A stretch of 64,000 nucleotides of DNA from Ectocarpus siliculosus. Its lineage: Eukaryota; Sar; Phaeophyceae; Ectocarpales; Ectocarpaceae. The stretch covers positions 4,243,546-4,307,545 of the forward strand of contig FN649740.1 of the NCBI GenBank assembly GCA_000310025.1, in the 5' to 3' direction. Made by a program: the position numbers and the translations under genes. Below are positions 1 to 59,900 of this stretch, one piece after another (position 1 is the stretch's first letter; every line of letters starts with the position of its first letter). The notes beneath the pieces are model-generated. The model was not told the DNA's origin, searched no databases, and was given only the letters and a program-made list of their open reading frames with translations.

Positions 1-1089
1 CAAGGAGCAATGAACGACACGCCAGCAGCGGACGGGAGACCGACTGACGACAAGAAGCAGTCACACGTGTACTAATCATGTCCACGTGTGGCGACCTACA
101 CCGTAGTTGTTTTGCCTAGGAAGAGGAGTGGATGGGACGTACTGGAGGGAGGCCAGATCAATCATGTCATGTCATCACGAACACGTACACTGACTCTGCG
201 CGATGAGTTGGATTCGCTAGGCTTTGATCGATCCAAGCCGATTTCCGTGTCTCTCATTTTTGCCTTGCTCTCCTGCAGGCTTGTACCGGTGGGAGTCCCA
301 GCCAGGTGCGTGGGGCTGTTCATGGGACCGTGCATGGAAGACCTGACGTACAAGAGGTGAGACGAGCTACTGTATGTAGGGGACAGGAGGTGAAAAACAT
401 CGTGTCACGGCCACACCGATACCCGAATCACTTTCGACCGGCACGCTGCAAGTCACATCCATACGAAAAGAGACGTCAAGACATCGATTTTTCTGTTGCA
501 ATACGATACCCCTTTTTTCTTGAGCCTGGCGCTGAAGACACGCCTCGTTTCACCTAGGCCCTACCCCACAACGCCACGATCCTGGAACGGACGATTTTTA
601 CCCGTCTCCGACAAACCTGTGGCAGCGCGGAGAATCTCTTGTTCGTGGCGGTCGCTCAAGACACGACTTCCGTTGGAAGCTCCCAAAAGCCGATAACTGC
701 GGTACCCCCGAAACGTGGCACGTGCCTATGCGTATTTTGCCCGACGCGGCCCGAACTCGCATTTACCGAGTGCCAGGGCCAACGTTTTGAGGACTACGGG
801 CGTGCGTGACGATGAGCACGCCCTACTCCCACCCAACCCCTACTTTTCGCGCCACAAAACGCCTCAATCTCGCAGCCAAATACCTGGCAACAACCTCGAA
901 CCAAAGCCCGAAAACAGGGGCAATCGACCTTCCGCTAATATTTGCATGCCCCCCCCTCCCTCCTATCACAGCACGGAACGCCTCTTGTTCGACCCATCGC
1001 TGAGGACGAGCCACGCCCCGGTCTGCCACCGCGCCGCGCTAGAGTGACTGATACTGCCGCCGTCCTTCCTCTGGCCCGCGGGGGTCGCC
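1..1089. other. No gene identified
   Basis: Short open frames on both strands (for example 88-360 and 715-1047 plus) show no recognisable domain, splice pattern or repeat. Confidence 0.5.
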
Positions 1090-1266
1090 GTGAATCCCTA
1101 CGACCCCGACCCCGTCCGAAAGTGCCCCGCCAGCACCGGCGCCGGCGTTGCGCACGCACTGTTGCATACTCACCGGTTGCTGTCACCGACACCGTTGCCG
1201 CGGTTAGCGCTAGGAGAGGAAGGACTCCGTGGTCCTCATTTTTATCCTTTTCCGGATGCCGCGACA

Positions 1267-1298
<32 letters not shown>

Positions 1299-2112
1299 TG
1301 CTACTTGTGGGGTACATTGTTTTCGCGGCGGGAGAAGAGACGAGCTGCCGATTGATGTCGGGCGGAGGCAAGGCCGTGGGGGTGTAGTCTCGTTTGAAGA
1401 GGGTTCCTCTCCTGCTTCGCACCCGTATCCCCCCGGCGGGGAAGAAGACAGCGGCGGCGGCGGCGGCGGCAGCAGCAGTAGCGCCGGAGTCGACCGGAGA
1501 GGTAGCGTACCCCTCCCCTACCAGGGGATGACAGCACGGGCCTCCCTCCCATCATCCCTTTCGACACCTTACCCATGACCCGGTTGCCAACCTGCCGGTG
1601 TTGCTGGCACTCCTGCTGATCGCAACGCTGATCCCGGGAGGGAAAATGCAACTGAAGGGCGATCGGCCGCTCCTCGTCTAGAGCAGCAGCCCATGCCCCG
1701 ACATTCGTACAGCAGTAGCGGTAACGGGGGAGGTCATTTCTTTGGGGCGAGGACGGGCGCCGGTAATCGACGACCGTCGGGTGGTTCCGTCGCATCCGCG
1801 CGTCCTTTTCCGGTGCATCGGTGGGGCGTCGAAGGAAAGGACGAAGGCGGAGCGGATGTAGACAGTAGTGGCAATCTCGACGGCTTGAGAAGACATACGA
1901 GCATCGGGAATGAAGAGAGGCGGAAAGATAGCTTTGGTCCTGATTTTGCCTACGACGAAGCGAGGACAGGAGGGAGGAACAACATCTCGGGAGTCATTCG
2001 GAGGAGGAGGAGGACGAGGACGAGGACGAGGGAGAAGTTTCTGAGTTTTGGCGGGTGGGACGGGGGGATATGTGAATGGAAGGTGGATACCACTCAAGGC
2101 ACGTGCGTTTAG
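1090..2112 (+). other. GC-rich coding-like region, gene model unresolved
   Basis: On the plus strand, one reading frame is open from 1090 to 2112 (341 codons) except for a single TGA at 1576-1578. It contains poly-Ala (about 1266-1297, GCC repeats), then Gly/Ser runs (about 1450-1485) and an Arg/Thr-rich end. Other frames also look coding locally; for example, one reads VANLPVLLALLLIATLIPGG near 1590-1640. High GC keeps several frames open, so this could be exons of a real gene, a pseudogene, or neither. Confidence 0.3.
1266..1297 (+). repeat. (GCC)n microsatellite
   Basis: About ten GCC units; they encode poly-Ala in the frame that is open from 1090. Confidence 0.9.
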
Positions 2113-5100
2113 GGGGTGAGTACGGCAGAGCATCACTCCCAGCGTAGAAGAGTCGTAAACAACAAGCTTGAACAATCCACAAGAAAATCCTTTCCTATGT
2201 GAGGGGGGTGGGCGGATTGCGGCCGGCATTTTCGCTGTTCTATCTGCATTTTGTTTTTGTTATGTTTATTGCTTGCGTTGACGCTGTGTGTTGTTCGTTG
2301 GCTGCCGCTTTTATCGAGTGCGGCCGCGCCGTAACGAGGAATATCGTACACACGCGAACAATAAACACGTTTTCCCCCTCGAGCGAGACTTCGTGCAGCC
2401 GGCTCGGAGAAATATCCTCTCTGGTTACCTTGCTGATCGCCTGCCTCATTGCCTGGTGGGTACTAGGGGGTGGCGGTTCAGTGTTGCGCGTAGAGGGTAT
2501 CGAATCTTCTGAAGGATTCGCAAGGACGTTGGATTTTGGCTTTGAGCACTGCCTTTCGCCCAAACCGTTGCACGAACCCTTTGTGTGGCCCAACACCTGC
2601 CCGTCGGGTCACTTTGTGTAGTTTCCATTTTGTCGAATGTTGGCCGAGCGCTTGGTACTTCATACTCTGGATCCTAGTCCTGTCGACCTGACGGTCACTT
2701 GGGGTTGTTCATCACACGTCGGTGATTGGACTGGCAACGGCCGGACCGTTCAGCCACGACCGGGTCGTTCACGGCCGGCCATATGATGAGCAACAAGTAG
2801 GATCTGTGCATGCTTTAAAAAATGTTTGACCCAGCGTTGTTGTCCATCGAGAGAACGTGTGTTTTGACGTATTCATCGTTAATTTAACCAGTTTGTGCAC
2901 TGCTTGAATCAATAGGACATGTATTTTCGTTGGCACTCTTGGGAGAGGCCCATCTTTGGACGCCCTCGCCCTCGTGCTGCGTCTGCTCCATCAGATCTTT
3001 TGTGGAGGAGCAAGATGACCACTTAGACTAGACCACGAGTTAGCGCTGACTAGTGGTCTAGTGGTAATCGGGCTTCTCAACAATTGACATGCCAACAGCC
3101 GTGTCACGGGCTGATCTCGCCCGCAGGTATGTTGCCTGTCTGTTTTTTTCGCACCCAAAATTACACTGGTGGCGAGAGGCAGGTTGTGGCTAGGTTGGGG
3201 CACCAACTACAACCTGGGGGGGGAGGTTGCGGGAGGTTGCAGCCCAAAGTGTGCACGTTATCCCGCATCTTGGATAGAGGCGTTATTCAATCGATGAAGA
3301 AAGCGGTTTCTTCTGGCTTTCTGCTGTGTTTGTTGTGAGATCCTCTCACGCGCCAAACCCACTTCCCCACACCAAGAGCGGGAAGCCGACAACACAGACA
3401 GCGGCGATGTGCCTGTTTCTTCTCGCAGCCGCACTCTCAACGCCCGGCCGAGAGGGCCAGCAGAGCATTCTGAGAGCTCTGGGAGAGGGAGAAGCTAATG
3501 GGGCTGGCTACACATCACATGCATGGTAATCTTTCTCGCCTGTGATCAACCCACCGCTGGCTGCCGCAGCTACGTAGCTTCCGTTGGAAACAGGTGCTGT
3601 GTCGAGGCCTGCATCTTCAATCCACAGGATCCGGCTCTGGAACATGAGAGAGGACGGCCGTGTTGTGCTGCGATGGTTGGGTCTTGGGCGCGCAGCGCGA
3701 TCTGAGGGCACTCTGGTGGAGGATTATTCTGGTGGTCTGGGGGGGTGGGAGCAAGTGGGAGAGGGGAAAACGTGAGGAGGGTCGTGAACACGTGGATCAT
3801 TTTTATTTTTTTCGAGCCATCCATCGACTGCCGTGCGAAACGGTAAAAATAAGGTTCGCCACCGTCTTGTCGTTGCATGGGTTAGTGTTACGAAAACATT
3901 ATTCCTGCGTCATGATGGGGCATCTGTTTCTGGTTAGAATCGAGATGTGTGCCCGCGCCATGGTGTTTATAAATATGCCATTTTATCTTGCACATGGAAC
4001 AATACTCTGTTGTGCTGAGTGCCACATTCAAATTAAGTGGTCACCGGTTTCGAATCGACCCACTCCTAGTGTACTTTGTTGGTACATACCGCACATAACG
4101 GAAGAACTCGGTAGGAGAACACACTAGGTCAAGAAGAAATACGCGTGCCAACATACTGAGCGATACCACCGCAATTCCTTCACCACAAAACAAATAAATA
4201 TTGCGAGGCCCTACCCCATCGACATGTTGGAGTATAGTCTACGTATTTCTCTTGTCGTGAATGTTGAAGCCTTGTCATTCACCATACCTACTACACAGGA
4301 GTTGAGCCCGCACTTCCGAAACCTGGAGGGCTCAGAAATTCAGGCTATAAAGGAAAACTTGGCAACAAGAACAAGCGCTCACTCGAGGAGTCTACCAGTA
4401 CACCGCATGTAAATATATTCAGCCGGCGTTGGGCTACTCCATAGAATAAGAAGCGAGCCTCGACGAACGAAGATGTTCTTGACTACGGGCGCCAACTGTA
4501 GTCGTCAAGTTTCAAGTAACGTACGGGCAAGTTCGTTGTTGTTACAAGAGAATCTCGTTACATACAGCGGTTCTAAAAAGTTCATAAAGATGGTACTGAT
4601 TCACCTTGACCCTGCCCATGATCGCGAACGTTGACTGCTCACGGCGGTCTGAGCTTGTAGTCCTGTCTTCTCTCTGTATCGCCCCCTCTGTCTCGCTCTT
4701 GAGCTGGTGTCTGGAGGTGGGGTCTTGGCTTGAGTGGAGGTCAGACTAACGAATATTCGGTCTCAATGCGCTGGTATCAGCAGAAGTATCTGCACGTGAT
4801 AGGAAGGACAAGAGGGCAGGCGTAAGTGTAATCGTGGGCGGGCTGCTCTCTCCCAGGTGGTTTTGAGTGAAGATGGATGATGGGCAGAGGCATTAGGACG
4901 AGACCGCCTCCTTGAAGAATCGAAACTGTTGCCTCTTCGTCGAAAGGTGCGGCTTAAGACCAGGGAGAATCGAACCTCTCTGAGTCCCCGTTCTTATGTT
5001 CCTTATGTTTACCCTACTGTAGTATCGTGATCAATGGAGTACGGAATGTCACGTGCTCGGATTCAGCCACGGCATCACCGTACCACACCTGAATATATCC

Positions 5101-28300: not shown

Positions 28301-30781
28301 AACGTCGTAGCCAGTGCTGGCGGCTGCAGAGTCAGAAAAAAAAAATCTCACCCGTCGTTCCACCAGTCGAAGCCGTCGAATAACTGGTACCACCAGTATT
28401 GCCCCGCCACCGCAAGAACCACGGAGATGAGCATGATGGTGAGCGCCCTCACGCGGCCCACCAGAGGAGCGTTGGCGCCATCGCCGCCCCCGCTGTTCGT
28501 GCAGCTGCCGCACGAGAACGCAACGTACATACGTTGATTAAAAAGTCAAACTGGCACCACAAGGGGAAACACCGCCAGATGAACATATAACACAGAATAT
28601 GGAACAAGTTGTGTATTCTCGAAATGGGATGCAATGATTCCATTGACAAAGACCTGGAGAGAAGATCCAACAAGGAAATCGACCCTCGCCACCGATTCGG
28701 CGCCGGACAGCATGGACGCAATCTACAGCGTGGCCACCGTGGTCAACGATCAGGGTGTCCGCAAGCGGTTTCGGCGCCGGACAGCATGGACGCAATCTAC
28801 AGCGTGGCCACCGTGGTCAACGATCAGGGTGTCCGCAAGCGACTTCCCGGCAAGATTGCCGCAGCCGCTGGGCCGCGCGGGGCGGACACCCTGGCTCTCG
28901 ATGACTGCCTCCGTGTGTCGTACATGCTAACGAACCTGTCGGACCCGGTCGCCCTCGTCAACCGCCGGCACCGGCGGTTGCCGGCGGTTGACGAGCGACC
29001 GGGCCCGACAAGTTCATCGCCTCGGGGCGGTCCGTTAGCATGTGCCAGATACGGAGGCAGCCATCGAAAAGCCAGGGTGTCGGCCCCACGCGGCCCGGCG
29101 GCTGCGGCAATCTTGCCGGGAAGCCGCTTGCGGACACCCTGATCGTTGACCACGGTGGCCACGCTGTAAATTGCGTCCATTCTGTCCGGCGCCGAAGCGG
29201 TGGCGAGGTCGATGTCGAGGAGGGCGCTACTCATGATGCCGAAGAGGGAAGAGCGGAGGAGCGGAGGAGCGGAGAGAAGAAATAGAAGCAGAGAAACCGG
29301 GAAAACACGCTGCTGCTGAACAGAACACGTAGGGAGAAAGGGATACCCACACGAGAGGCGACGTGCGCACCGCCCTGCATGTGCGCTGCGACTGAACGGC
29401 CTCAACCGGTGCTCCCTGTTATCTTTCTGTTTTCCTGTCTTCCTGTCGAAGCAGGGTGCCACAGTGAAAAGTGAGAGCGGACCTCGTCCTCTAATAATGT
29501 TGGCTCTTTGTTGCGCGACATATCTGGAAAGATTGCATCTCTTTCCACCTTGGTTCTTGATAATACAGGTAGGATCGAGGCTCTGAACTTTGTCGATAGC
29601 GCAGGCTCACGACAGCTCTATGCATGCACAAACTGAATCCTCAAAAGTTATTAGTGCTTAGGGCTTGGAATGAAAATGGATACACCAACACAATATGGTG
29701 GTTCCGATAGTTGATGGTGACCCATGTACTGTAGTTACCATGGTCTTCTAGATGTGGAGTGGTGGAACTTGGCCGAAATATTCAGAAAGAATCGCTGCGA
29801 GAATCTCGGGATGATTCCGCCTCACGACCGCAATTTTACGAAAGTCGCCCGGAGGCTCAAGCCAAGACACATGTGATACATGGCGTTTCCGCACAATACA
29901 ACATCGGATCTGGGTACCTGTTGTCATCTTATGTTCTTGAGTTTGCGTATGTAGACTTCTCGGAGGCTCAATGTCTTACCTGTACAGCAGTATTCTCAAG
30001 TCCGTACGTTGAGCGCCTTCTGTACTCACAGGAAAACAAGTACCATCCCATATGCATACACACGCGGTGCAGATGTTTGGTCTAATTGCGTGAGGTGATG
30101 CAAATGTGCATAGAATCATCCTTGGGAGAGGACAAAAGCGAGCAGGCATCTGTAGAAAAATACTTCTTAAAAATAAAAAAATACAAAAATACAGCTCTCT
30201 AAATGATATGTAGACTAGAATTGCTGCCGACTGCTGTAGAATTTCATAATATCTGCCGCACTTTCCTGAGAAGTGTAAACATAGCACGTGCTCATTCGTC
30301 TTTGCGGTAGAGTGTGTACGTTCGAAATTGGGATGCGCTAGCTCCTTGTTCGTGCCCGTCCAACTCCCTCTGGTCGGTGTGGCGCACAGACCTACAGGAG
30401 GAGAGGGTGGTGCGAGAATACAATTAGTTCCCGATACACCAAAATGTCTGCACACGCTGAAAGAAGCATTTCTCCTCGGTCCCGTGCGTTAAACCACGTT
30501 ATTGTGAAAGCTAGAGATCAAATTCCTGGCCCTATTGAGAGCTGCTGTGCGAGTCGTTGGACATGCATTCCGCAGTCTGCTGGTGCCTTCGCTATACATT
30601 CAACGCTGCGGACCGTCCTTGCGATGTGCGCATCTGACATCGGCCCGGTAAACAACCCGGCGGTCTACATCATCATTGTCCGAACCTCAGCAGAGGAAAC
30701 TCACCATCCCAAGCAACTGCAGCAGATGCTGGCGACACTGACGCATGTCTGGCACGCCGCACAGGCGAGACAGGCACCCAT
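22341..30781 (-). CDS. SERINC: SERINC/TMS1-family multipass membrane protein, 9 exons
   Basis: Serine-incorporator family protein (PF03348 type), 467 residues, a normal length. The family has 10-11 membrane segments, sits in plasma or endosomal membrane, and is linked to serine-derived lipids or lipid scrambling. Exons on the minus strand: 30781-30705, 28504-28352, 27128-27044, 26317-26100, 25491-25293, 24901-24708, 24169-24112, 23831-23628, 22556-22341; every junction is phase-consistent. Diagnostic pieces are the Cys-rich start MGACLACAACQTCVSV continuing into CSCLGCCTNS across the first intron, then GNTAVYRVSF, FWGFKFMLW, VLIDLAYR, SKTPTSSCNP, a Pro/Gly/Ala-rich cytosolic loop (exons 7-8), and the C-terminal LTNWG...YAWTLVAPLVFPDRDFS. 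The 77-nt first exon was found from the N-terminal Cys signature and its strong donor GTGAGT. An in-frame ATG at 28530 would give a shorter protein lacking the Cys-rich tip and is judged not to be the start. Confidence 0.95.
27802..27879. repeat. Nested short inverted repeats in SERINC intron 2
   Basis: CGAGAAAAGTT (27834-27844) pairs perfectly with AACTTTTCTCG (27869-27879). GAGAAAAGTTGCG also pairs with an upstream GCGCAAC...CTCTC segment (27802-27819). This makes two alternative hairpins in an AT-rich island within the intron. No gene function is implied. Confidence 0.7.
28674..29220. repeat. Large imperfect palindrome (inverted repeat) in SERINC intron 1
   Basis: The left arm, about 28770-28968, is the near-complement of the right arm, about 28982-29196. 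A short spacer near 28969-28981 separates them, and weaker arm homology extends about 20 bp further on each side. Differences between arms are scattered substitutions and a few indels: the right arm has an extra block of about 17 bp near 29010-29035 and an extra T near 29068. Both arms encode, in outward-to-inward orientation, the peptide DAIYSVATVVNDQGVRKRLP. A transcript of either strand could fold into a long hairpin. No terminal repeats or transposase were seen. Confidence 0.93.
28696..28841 (+). repeat. 72-bp direct duplication at the outer end of the left palindrome arm
   Basis: The block 28696-28767 (starting TTCGGCGCCGGACAGCATGG and ending CCGCAAGCG) is repeated at 28770-28841 with no difference that I can see and a 2-nt gap. 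The right arm carries only one copy, so the duplication is later than, or separate from, the inversion. The near-identity suggests a recent event. Confidence 0.93.
28824..29235 (-). pseudogene. Unrecognised open frame in the right palindrome arm
   Basis: On the minus strand an ATG at about 29235 opens a frame starting MSSALLDIDLATASAPDR and continuing DAIYSVATVVNDQGVRKRLP. It runs through the whole palindrome. The left arm encodes the same peptide on the plus strand and continues as TLALDDCLRVSYMLTNLSD, whereas the right arm has an extra T after TLA and shifts frame there. I read this as a gene fragment present in two opposed copies, at least one of them frameshifted. No family is recognised. 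It lies in SERINC intron 1 in the sense orientation but has no good splice donor, so it is unlikely to be a SERINC exon. Confidence 0.45.
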
Positions 30782-33048
30782 GTTTGCCTCCTGTTTCCGG
30801 TTCTCTCTCGCTCTCCCTCCTCTCTGAGCTTAGCTCGCTCTTGTCTGGGTTTTAGAGCAAGTCCCCGGCCGCTGCTGTCACCGCACCGTCCCTTCCCCCT
30901 TGCAAACCCAGTAGACGGCACCCTTCCGAACCTTTTGGCAGGAACTACACCAGTCAGCAGGTACCAAGATCAGCCAGTCGAGCAGAGTCAACAGCACAGC
31001 ACGCAGCAGCGTAGAAAGAGAGGCAGCGGCTTCAGGAGTACGCCCCAAGGCCCTCAACAACTTGTAAACCGTTTCTCAAAATTTTGGAGAACCGTCTGCA
31101 GATCGATCCGCGTTCGAAATTATTGGTGGGTACCTTGATTATGCGGAACCCCCGCGGCGGCGATGCGCCGAGCGGGTCAGGGGTGGTGCATCAGGTTCTT
31201 GTGCTGCATCAGGTTCTTGATGCAACTCGTCCTTCTTGTGGTGCCTGGCCAGGTAGCAAACCAGGAACGCCATTTTTTCATAAGGTAAGTCGGCGAATAA
31301 GTCGAGGGGGCAGTGCTTGCGGCAGTCCAGCTAGCTGGACGGAAACTACGTTGTAGTCGGGTCAATTTTGCGGAACGTGGACCTTCCTTCGTCTCTGTCT
31401 CTCTTGGCACATGCATGGACTTCATGATATTGTAGCGCACAACAGGGGTTGACACTGATAGATTCGGTAAAGTGTTCTAGCACACCATGAAATGAACCAG
31501 TGGTGCGTCTCCACGGTATCCCTCAAAATCTATGCCCTCTCCCCATTTGTTGTGTTACCGGCGGTTGGGCATCTAGGACGTAGTGCAATGAATAGTTCCA
31601 CCGCCTGTCAGAAATCTGCACAAATGTGAAGTTCATTTCCTGTCACACCTGTGAATCTCTTCTGACAGATGTTGTTGTCGCCCTCACACTCCTTCATTCC
31701 TTCACTACAACTGTTCGACCGTCGAGAGGACTTATTTTATCCCCCGTGTGGGTGTTATCCTCGCCGGCGAATCACAGGAAAATATCAATGATCGTGTATG
31801 CCTCCAAGCATGAGCAATTAAGTTATTTTCTTGTACGCTATCAACGGCGTGTACACGCTCTCTGTGTGACAACTCGAGCGATGGCGCACGGGCGTGGCAT
31901 CATTCGAATTTGCCCCCAGTCACTAGGATACGATAGCACTCCGTAGGGGTGGAACTGTATTTTGATTCATGCGAAGTCCATTACACCCCGTATTGTGCGA
32001 TAGACCCTCGTATCCTCGTATACCATCACGTGCCTGATGGGTGCAGGCACAATCAGGGCCGCAGCTTATGCAGAACCTATATTGTAGTACCGCCGTTCTC
32101 GCCTCTCGAACTGACTCACTTTATTTCCGTTGGGTTCCCCCAATATCCAGAACGTGTGCCCTTGTTTTGAATGTCCCCCGCGAAAATGCGAGAAGGCCAG
32201 GACGTTCACGTCACATGGCTGATATTTGAATGCCATCTCCGACGCTTTGTCGGCAGCATGCCTCTTGACCCGTGACGGCGATGCCCTCAAGTTTGGAACG
32301 CGCATATCGCTTGTCTTCTTTTTGGGATGAAAGTTACACCTTTCGCTCGACCTTGCTGCCGACAGCAGTAGTGGCTTCGTCTGTTGCGGACGGCGAGGGA
32401 TGACACCCACCGCCGCCCATCCGTACGGAGTTTTGCCCTCTCTCCGTTTGATCCGGGTATCATTCGATTCGCAAATTTTTTTCGATGGTGGCATGCACAA
32501 GCACAGCAGGGGACAGGCGAAGCTGGGGGTGCGTTTTGTCCACGGCGGTACTGTGGCTGCGTTTGTGGCAGTGCTTGCACAAGCAGCCACCACGGCTGAA
32601 CGTGGAAATGATTTGACTGGTTGTCACTTGATGGACTGCCCCCTTCGTCATGCCTTTCTCCCGCGTTCCACCCCAAATCGACTCTCTCTTGCAAATATGA
32701 TTCGTAGAACACAACCCTAACCAACCAAAGTACAAATAGGGACCCGCCATCTTCACATAATGGCCCTAGCAGGCCACCGATGTGTTGGCAACCACAATAC
32801 GAGTTGACTGTGCCGCACGAATGGGTTTACCTGGCGCAAGCAGATGCAGGCATGCGTCAAGCTCGGGTCGCGCAACGAGATCCTCCGCGACCTACCTACG
32901 TGGCGATATCTTGCCTGTTTCCCAAAGAGTCTCACCTCCAGCAATTTGCCCATTCCGCCACCGCTTTTTGCCCTCCCAAACATGTAGCACAAACGCCAGG
33001 GCAGGAGGAAGAAGTGCGGGCTAAGAATAAGAGGACGTTGTTAACGCC
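30782..33048. other. Divergent intergenic region between SERINC and the C2 gene
   Basis: This 2.27-kb region should hold the promoters of both genes. No clear TATA box was identified. A 175-codon minus-strand frame (32066-32593), whose second half reads AADKASEMAFKYQPCDVNVL then AFSHFRGGHSKQG, looks somewhat protein-like but has no recognised domain; it may be a gene remnant. Confidence 0.4.
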
Positions 33049-56500: not shown

Positions 56501-56853
56501 GAGGATGAGGGGGAAGAAAGCTCTGGGGAGGAAGAAAGCTCTGAGGAAAGTTCTGAGGAGGGTTCCGACGGAAGTTCTGACGGCGGCGCCATGTCTGTCG
56601 ACGAAGACGAGGGCAACGGCGTCAAGAAGCGGAAGAATATCAAGATGCCGAGGGAGGAGAGGGTGGCTGCGTCCCCCGGAGGGTCGGGGGGCGGCAGGAC
56701 TCGTCGAAGGGCGCTATTCGACGACGATGACGTCACAGGGCGCGGAGAGGACGGCCGCGACGAAGAAGGTGTGTTTGCGTCAGCACTCCTTGCGCTCTGT
56801 GCAATAGATTAGGTATTTTTTAAAGATTAGAGAATAATCTGTTTCTCTCTCTG

Positions 56854-56907
<54 letters not shown>

Positions 56908-59900
56908 GTCTCTCTTCATTTTTTCCCTGAAAGAAGAAATACATTGAGTGTTTGTTGGGGTACAGTTATTTGTCGTTGGGAATCGTGCCGTGATGAGGGA
57001 GGTGCAGTAGACGGGGTCCCGGCCTGGTTTGGGGCACGAGGACGGCGGTATGGAACAGGCGTGCGAAGAGGAAGGGGCGAGAAAGTGTGCGTAGGACAAC
57101 ACGTACTATGTCGCAAACACTTAGCCCGCCCCTCGTTTGTGACTCTTTGCGTAGCAGGCCCTTAGCACGTCGAGAACCCAGCTCGGTTTTCACCTTTTTC
57201 ATGGTGGAGTCCGATGTGTTGTTTGTAGGTGCACTTCTGTCTTGGAGTGGGTTTAATGCGGAAGCAGCTTGCAGGGGGCGATCATGAAGGCGTGAAGGAA
57301 AAAAAAACGAACTTACGCGCACGGAACGTTTGATGTGAAAACGTAGCAACAACATGAGAGGACGTTCGTTGTTGTTTGTTGGCAGGAAAACAATGCGTCG
57401 GAAACGTCGAGGTGCACATCCACAAATCAATATTTTGCAAGAGGAGGCCCGTGGTTGCACAATCCAACGATTGACGCCGTTGTATTCCCCCCGTCTTCGG
57501 AAGTGGTCGATCCCTTCCCCCCTTTGCCCCTACGCTGCGGCGTTTCAATCTGCGTTCGTCCTCTAGTTCATCCAGCCCCCGTCCCCCTGCCGCCCCCACA
57601 TATCACTGCCGGGGCCTCGCGATTGTGTTGTACGTGAAAATGAGGAGCAGTTTTTTTTCGTGGCGATGTCGATGTCGGTAGAGGGGACACACCAGTGGAT
57701 GCGATCGGTTCACACACGCCATTGCACGTGTGCGTGCCTTCGTTCACCCCCACGCGCTTGCTCTGTTCCTCTTTGTGGTATCAGACGACTCCGACGGCTC
57801 CATGTCTGAGGACGATGACGATGTAGACGAGAACGGTGGCGTGAGCCAGGCGTGGAAGAGCGGCATGGCGACGAGAGCGGCGGAGAGGTTCTTGCAGAGG
57901 AAGTCCCAGAACGTGAACCTCCAAGACCTGGTGTACGGCAGGCCGGGGAGAGGCGGCCAGGACAACGCGGCCAAGGTGCACAGCTGTTGTTGCATGTTGC
58001 TTTCTTGTTGCTGCTTACTGTTGTTGTTGCTTGTTTGTTGCTGCTTACTGTTGTTGTTGTTGTTGTTGTTGTTGTTAGAGGATGCGGTTGTTGACGTTGG
58101 TGCTTCTTGCTATTGCTTCTTACGTTCTCGTGGTCGTCGTCATCGTCATTTTTTGTTGTTGTTTTTTTACGACTGAGGTTGGATTGGGTGTCTCGTGTGT
58201 GCCAACGCAGCTACAGCCAGACATGGATAAGACCGTTCGGTTCCGCCCAAACGTCAGGACCGAACTCACGTTAGGCACAGTCGGCACCCGCGCCAGCCCA
58301 GTAGCGCAGCGTATCCCTGGATGACAGCGTGACGCCGCATTGTTGACGCTCGTTCGGGACACACAACCCGTACCTAAAACAAACAAAACCTTCTCCTATG
58401 TTCCGCAGGAAGGGGAGGACTCGGCATCCGAGGAAGAAGGCGGAGATCAGGAGCAAGACGATGACTTCTTCACCATACGCGGCGGTGGGAACAAGGGTAG
58501 CAAGAGGCGAGGCCATTCTTCCTCCGGTGGGGGCGACGCCGAATCGGAGGATGACGACGACGACGAGGACGGGGGGGGTGGCGTCGGGGGCGGGGACCGG
58601 TCCAAGTTTTACCCGGACCGGGAGGCGTTGGACGACTGGGAGGGGACCGGGGACGACTGCGCGATCGAAGCTATACGAAACAAGTGAGATTGGGCGTGTT
58701 GGTTGTTGCGTTCCCTGGCCGAGCACGCTGAGCAGTACTGGGATTGTCGCTTTGGTGTTTCGTCAGGATGCGCGTGCTTCGCCTCACAGGTAACAATGGT
58801 AGAGCTGAGGTTGTCGTTACTCTCTTGGCGGGGAACGGAAAAAGGCCAGAGATGCAGCCTTTTGGAGCCGTGAGCTGAACAAACATCGAAGATGTCCACG
58901 TCCCCAATCGTTAGCGACAACAGAAACGACGTCCCCAACTTGCGGCAGAGAATACGACGGCCACCGCCGCCACTGCCACAGCGTTGGTGGTTCAGGTCCG
59001 GATGATCATCTTTCCTGACTGTCGTGCACCGCCAAACCTCTCGACGAAGAGGATAAGCACCCAAGAGCGATCACAAGAACGGCCATTTTTTTTGTCTCTT
59101 TTTGTGCAGATTCGTCACCGGTGACTGGGGGTCCGGGGCCGGAGCGAACGGTGCCGGAGGCGGCGGGGCAGGCGACGGAGACGATGGCGACGGCGACGAC
59201 GACGACTCCGAGGTCTACGGAGATTTCGAGGATCTGCAGACCGGGTAGGTGGAAGTTGTTATTGTTTTGTTGGTCAGGGAGGAGGAGGAGTTACGAGGTA
59301 GGGGGGGTCGTTTTTGTTATCTAAGCCCAGAGGGGCCGCAATGACGCCGTCCGGTGGTAGCGGTGGTAGCGGTGCAAGCACGTACGTGAACGTGTAACCG
59401 GGGGGGGGGAGAGAGAAATATTATATATATTAGCGAGAGAGACAGAGAGACAGAGAGACAGAGAGAGACACAGAGAGAGAGAGAGAGACAGAGAGAGACA
59501 GAGAGACCGAGGGGTGAAAAGGTGAGTATCCGCGGCAATTCGGACAAGTGTCGGACAGGGGTAGCCCCCCCCCCTTGCATTGGAACAGTTGAGCCCTATC
59601 GAATGTCTTGCTCAATCAACGTTCATGTGCCGTCATCCACAGGGACAAGTTCGGACCCGGTGCTGAAGACAGCGATGACAGCGATGACGATGACGACGGA
59701 GACGAGGAGAATGGTATGGAGACCGAGCGTGAGAAGAACGCTCGACTGAAAGCCGAAGCAATGGCCTCCAAGGACGAGGTGGGTGCGGTGGGTTCTGTTG
59801 CTGTCGTTGGCGCTGGCGCTGTAGTTTGCAGATGCCAATGCCTCCTTCTTCCGTGTTTTTATGGTAATTTGGATTTACCTGCAGGTTGCCGGTTTGGTTG

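Follow-up and report, generated by a model that had tools for sequence, protein, structure and literature searches.

Mu killer of maize duplicates part of a transposon gene in inverted orientation and lies beside a host gene (PMC3440606). In the parts of that report on which we draw, short antisense transcripts accompanied silencing, and sense read-through from the flanking gene was observed in plants in which silencing failed (PMC3440606). For Ectocarpus, sections of a recent survey by Dinatale et al. (2025; PMC12477816) that cover its PAT-like families describe intronic transposable elements (TEs) as common and degraded, small RNAs as favoring particular TE families, and TE control as largely unknown. 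The lineage is also reported to have no cytosine methylation and to carry one Argonaute. The DIRS retrotransposons of this alga include an ALOG-DIRS element of little over 9 kb, for which 159-bp terminal direct repeats and an inactive adenine methylase have been noted (Iyer and Aravind 2012; PMC3537659). A methyltransferase-like domain is listed elsewhere as a feature of PAT-like DIRS that is absent from Ngaro (PMC4157794).

The locus described here lies in a 64,000-nucleotide stretch of Ectocarpus siliculosus DNA, hereafter the window. Like Mu killer, it consists of an incomplete inverted duplicate of a transposon gene, with a host gene at its side that might transcribe it. However, its arms measure about 0.25 kb, derive from ORF1 of a retrotransposon, sit within an intron, and are diverged and old. 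Its hairpin also differs in having only one relic target found in the assembly. We consider it likely that the insert is the decayed 5' remnant of a PAT-like DIRS (tyrosine-recombinase) retrotransposon, oriented like the SERINC gene that hosts it and bearing a fold-back inverted duplication for which no dedicated function is needed. No title or abstract among the papers listed in our literature searches describes this locus, and TE annotations may well already list it as a DIRS fragment.

The palindrome is genuine and well outside what chance would give. With gaps allowed, its outer edges fall at about 28675 and 29216, so the extent of 28674..29220 proposed in an earlier sequence-only reading holds for the palindrome itself and misses the A1 terminal repeat located just outside. 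The repeat finder places inverted arms where that reading had put them, chiefly as a 127-nt pair with 95% identity (28770-28896 and 29070-29196) and an 89-nt pair with 96% identity (28684-28772 and 29120-29208). Shorter pairs extend inward at 28898-28936 and 29029-29067 (85%) and at 28932-28952 and 28995-29015 (90%). At the center is a perfect 17-bp pair (28954-28970 and 28979-28995) whose 8-nt spacer replaces the 13-bp gap previously given between the arms.

The sense arm (28984..29234, minus strand) corresponds to the N-terminus of a gag-like ORF1 (MSSALLDIDLATASAPDRMDAIYSVATVVNDQGVRKRLPGK...) and is palindromic from 29216 inward. The antisense arm (28675..28974, plus strand) is an inverted partial copy of the same ORF1 that begins about six codons past its ATG, with 93.9% identity over the outer 98 columns and further matching segments. 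When each arm is translated on its own strand, both yield the same peptide, as had been claimed. The arms had been described as diverged by substitutions and indels, which are indeed present, and several details had escaped notice. These include a 74-bp tandem duplication inside the plus-strand arm (28696-28769 and 28770-28843, 97% between copies), the loss from that arm of 18 nt that the minus-strand arm retains, and a 1-nt frameshift in the minus-strand arm, relative to the other, after ...GADTLA. The duplication at 28696-28843 adds about 74 nt that would be looped out of the hairpin.

The predicted fold of the minus-strand RNA spanning 28660-29240 has an energy of -480 kcal/mol, compared with a mean of -255.5 kcal/mol (standard deviation 6.35) for 100 dinucleotide shuffles, none of which folds as low (z of -35). 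This fold contains 243 pairs, 12 of them G-U, and one uninterrupted helix extends for 83 bp. The strong hairpin potential suspected from the sequence is thus borne out, and it is fair to predict a hairpin RNA. For the 64-kb window, a listing of inverted repeats (at least 40 nt, within 3 kb, 12-base seed) otherwise consists of simple-sequence or low-complexity pairs. Among them, a CT-rich repeat at 56838-56905 and an AG-rich repeat at 59436-59530, about 2.5 kb apart, pair as inverted repeats. We also checked 71 sequences, mostly picked for TE similarity and totaling 355,584 letters including overlaps, for inverted pairs of at least 80 nt and at least 75% identity within 1 kb. None was found in 53 sequences, and 17 positives represent the palindrome locus itself (the window plus 16 overlapping loci). 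The one other positive is a tandem-repeat inverted pair.

The sequence-only reading had stated that no transposase or terminal repeats were visible, and this statement proved incorrect with respect to the repeats. On the minus strand, 29562-29389 forms the 5' end of the insert and matches A1, a terminal (split direct) repeat, in the PAT-like DIRS copy located on contig C10, with 78% identity over 176 columns. Read in the minus-strand direction, A1 is followed by a leader, the ATG at 29234, ORF1 up to the center at about 28975, and then the inverted copy, which reaches about 28675 and whose similarity ends before the ATG, about six codons away from it. Between 29568 and 28987, the insert can be aligned with the C10 copy (604 columns, 79%), including the non-coding part ahead of the ORF, and the sense arm peptide is 82% identical to the C10 counterpart over 55 amino acids. 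The flanks match nothing else in the assembly, as judged from the 186 bases at the insert edge and acceptor (28505-28690) and from the region between about 29579 and 30000, and we therefore place the insert at about 28675-29568, with the 3' part of the element missing. No B repeat was found in the window. As A1 lies upstream of the hairpin in the direction of SERINC, it is a candidate promoter for the hairpin or for SERINC.

The window copy thus has the A1 repeat and ensuing gag-like ORF expected of PAT-like DIRS elements, and its relatives display the A1...B1-A2-B2 order of repeats together with reverse transcriptase (RT) and ALOG-type recombinase ORFs. In contrast to such elements, it is a 5' fragment that has no RT, recombinase, or 3' repeats and that carries an added inverted copy of the start of ORF1. 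As the window copy has neither an RT nor a recombinase domain of its own, its assignment to DIRS relies on the homology of A1 and ORF1 through the C10 copy. A Pfam search with the ORF1 pieces returned nothing.

The gene glimpsed in the arms had been expected to lead to a parent locus. It proves to be the N-terminus of the gag-like ORF1, and the search of the assembly (189 Mb in 492 contigs, with only the best candidates scored) gave the C10 relic and no other source. Specifically, a query with half of the palindrome matched only its own locus and C10:732961-733095 (89%), and the peptide query likewise returned only these two places with E values up to 10. Several other identities were considered. 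A MITE or other terminal-inverted-repeat DNA transposon was rejected, as the arms are coding ORF1 sequence and the arm was matched only at the palindrome locus and on C10, whose copy showed no inverted pair. An LTR retrotransposon and a Helitron carrying captured gene fragments were both dropped once the A1...B1-A2-B2 repeats appeared. No host gene was found to be the parent of the peptide, whose matches are confined to C15 and C10 with E values up to 10.

The C10 copy (locus L004, 4591-6684) carries split direct repeats in the order A1...B1-A2-B2, beginning at 4591, 6239, 6310, and 6611, respectively. It is a 2.1-kb, non-autonomous, frameshifted element, and its insertion must be old given that A1 and A2 are only 89% identical. 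Its ORF1 is broken, such that the start and the next piece are in different frames. A search with this next piece gave 19 further genomic matches with E values up to 1, and its best match is an ORF on C6 (41% identity, E of 1.7e-8) that lies beside A- and B-type repeats. A-type repeats were matched also on C464, C18, C16, and C30.

The differences between the arms bear on the age and origin of the palindrome. With one tandem copy omitted from the plus-strand arm in these alignments, the arms differ from each other in 19 of 218 aligned columns, 3 of which are in doubtful flank or center positions. The plus-strand arm differs from C10 in 29 of 222 columns and the minus-strand arm in 25 of 233. 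When C10 is used as an outgroup, six substitutions are specific to the plus-strand arm and seven to the minus-strand arm, with one of each in the doubtful flank. A further 15 differences from C10 are common to both arms and may have arisen either there or on C10, and one position differs three ways. Both arms carry an 18-nt segment that is missing in C10, whereas the plus-strand arm is without a stretch of 18 nt that the minus-strand arm and C10 both carry.

A fold-back read artefact is unlikely because the arms differ by substitutions and indels, and this divergence likewise upholds the earlier view that the structure is old and not an assembly artefact of one molecule. Palindromes are a known artefact of long-read libraries, which is the reason to consider such an origin, or an error of assembly, at all. 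Nevertheless, the arms differ not only by substitutions but also by the 18-bp deletion and the 74-bp tandem duplication, and the flanks are continuous with the SERINC gene, making an artefact extremely improbable.

The same divergence might instead suggest that the arms are independent, head-to-head insertions of related elements, with no fold-back duplication involved. Against this explanation, the 18-nt segment missing from C10 and the 15 differences from C10 are all common to both arms. Moreover, A1 is missing from the plus-strand arm, which begins within the ORF, and at the center the 17-bp palindrome is perfect and has a spacer of 8 nt. We therefore regard two separate insertions as improbable.

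In the preferred reading, a DIRS element would have inserted into intron 1 of SERINC and then lost its 3' part. The broken end might, perhaps in this order, have paired with itself at a short, GC-rich inverted repeat and been copied to give the palindrome, and a 74-bp segment of one arm would also have been tandemly duplicated. It is only the shape of the junction that suggests this fold-back origin, and neither an intermediate nor an unoccupied site was encountered. A few arm differences also carry a weak hint of coding constraint, which would be unexpected under pure decay. Within the stretch that keeps the reading frame, 5 of 8 differences are synonymous, compared with an expected fraction of 0.26-0.29 (p of about 0.04, a hand estimate), and 7 of the 8 fall at codon position 3. 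These 8 are drawn from 18 rows of differences, of which the 10 outside the intact frame or its alignment were omitted, and they are too few to support a claim.

The host gene, SERINC, lies on the minus strand, where 26072-26320 matches the Serinc family (PF03348) with an E value of 2.5e-16 in a Pfam profile search. The exon at 28352-28504, with a proposed acceptor of GGCAG/C, poses a question regarding the start of the gene. An ATG at 28530 is preceded by an in-frame TGA, and no AG occurs between the two. Thus, either the gene starts at 28530 or the exon is entered by internal splicing. To find an upstream exon, we scanned the upstream minus strand to 38000 for segments running from an ATG to a donor in one splice phase, which gave 54 candidates, of which the scan reported the 8 with an MG start or at least three cysteines. 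The candidate at 30781-30705, chosen among the 54 for its MG start and cysteine content, codes for MGACLACAACQTCVSVASICCSCLG plus 2 nt and ends at a GTGAGT donor. Joined to exon 2 through the GGCAG/C acceptor, it reads ...CSCLGCCTNSGGG....

Including this exon lifts the human SERINC3 match from 31.1 to 37.9 bits and lets it begin at residue 11 of the chain, and the match to the Serinc profile rises from 88.1 to 90.1 bits while its start on the profile moves from position 19 to position 4. A match to fly TMS1d, which scored 31.6 bits in the shorter form, is no longer among the matches listed. A start at the ATG at 28530 with no upstream exon was set aside because 30705-30781 supplies a cysteine-rich N-terminus and better matches to SERINC3 and the Serinc family. 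Intron 1 is therefore most likely 30704-28505 (2,200 nt, GT...AG, with splice sites predicted from the sequence), and it contains the palindrome, in agreement with the earlier placement of the palindrome in the first intron of a minus-strand SERINC gene. Unspliced SERINC RNA could fold into a long double-stranded hairpin, which would be removed with the intron. A fraction of this hairpin may be diced to 21-nt RNAs, although no dedicated function need be invoked.

The position of the palindrome, whose outer edge is separated from the proposed 3' splice site by only about 170 nt, invites the alternative that its stable 243-pair structure acts in cis on SERINC, either by influencing splicing as intronic double-stranded RNA or by serving as a miRNA-like precursor of recent origin. 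Ectocarpus miRNAs, as presented in portions of one report, are mostly intronic, lie on the host-gene strand, and perhaps derive from intronic hairpins (PMC4513859), and the window hairpin shares both its intronic location and its strand with these loci. However, it is far longer, forms a near-perfect helix, and derives from a TE. A continuous helix of 83 bp is atypical of miRNA precursors, and a search of 28400-30900 against Rfam at gathering scores gave no match. Furthermore, the intronic TE load in Ectocarpus is reported, in the sections concerned, to have little effect on expression (PMC12477816). An effect in cis thus seems very unlikely.

A different alternative is that the locus works in the manner of Mu killer, such that read-through transcription from SERINC or from A1 yields a gag hairpin whose siRNAs silence the parent PAT-like DIRS subfamily in trans. 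The anatomy agrees with this proposal, as both loci are partial inverted duplications of a transposon gene beside a host gene, and the sense arm comes first on the SERINC strand. The assembly has two RNase III matches and, in one place, six Piwi-domain matches that fall in a single 5-kb stretch of contig C2, and Dicer, AGO, and RDR homologues are reported for Ectocarpus (PMC4513859). Parts of the TE survey report 21-nt small RNAs on Ectocarpus TEs, with higher levels on PAT-like than on Ngaro DIRS (6.38 versus 1.81 log2CPM; PMC12477816). In addition, no autonomous source of the ORF1 start was found in the assembly, as if it had been lost or silenced.

Several observations dampen our enthusiasm for this proposal. 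In the relevant portions of published accounts, few TEs changed expression in ago mutants (PMC12867755), and even in the case of Mu killer, a model in which flanking genes supply antisense read-through has since been rejected (PMC3440606). The 10 transition differences between the arms divide into 7 that still permit a G-U pair in the minus-strand RNA and 3 that rule it out, a split that, counted by hand on too few changes, is not significant. The C10 relic is also the only substantial match found in the assembly. Of the 539 21-mers of the hairpin, 23 match this relic perfectly, 114 do so with at most one mismatch, and 228 with at most two, whereas at nine other related loci the closest hairpin 21-mer has four or five mismatches. 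The only substantial target found is thus a decayed copy, and no active target element with the hairpin sequence was found in the assembly. One 21-mer, searched in the assembly with up to three mismatches, occurs at nine places (six forward, three reverse), compared with four plus three for the reversed control; three of the nine are on C15 with no mismatch, C10 has one mismatch, and the other five have two or three. Short near-matches are thus about as frequent as those of the reversed control.

On balance, silencing in trans by a locus of this type appears unlikely. We are somewhat more doubtful of the full scenario in which an ORF1 duplication in the intron of SERINC, a conserved gene for a membrane protein, supplies the single Argonaute with 21-nt siRNAs and contributed to the extinction of its parent subfamily. 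The preferred reading remains a decayed fragment that is transcribed with SERINC, possibly diced, and probably without a dedicated function. If the hairpin is diced, it would show how an accident of local repair within a transcribed intron can create a trigger for silencing a tyrosine-recombinase retrotransposon. If it is not, the locus is an ordinary decayed TE fragment, and intronic palindromes that look coding call for caution because they can be TE debris.

The genome also contains more distant relatives of the insert. At the loci L053 (C25) and L054 (C3), A1 and A2 are 100% identical over 159 and 162 nt, respectively, and B1 and B2 are also 100% identical. This full identity makes the L053 element look recently inserted. 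The group shares B-type repeats with C10, and none of the hairpin 21-mers occurs in it with three or fewer mismatches. It is, by these sequence comparisons, related to the window subfamily and distinct from it. Pfam searches of the L053 ORFs gave matches to RVT_1 (E of 4.3e-9) and ALOG (E of 1.9e-9), as well as a Phage_integrase match below the cut-off (0.024). The gag-like ORF had no Pfam match, and no Pfam methyltransferase match was obtained for the RT ORF. In its size, repeats, and ALOG domain, L053 fits the published Ectocarpus ALOG-DIRS element, and the ALOG domain lies in the recombinase ORF (894-2480, minus strand) of this approximately 9-kb element.
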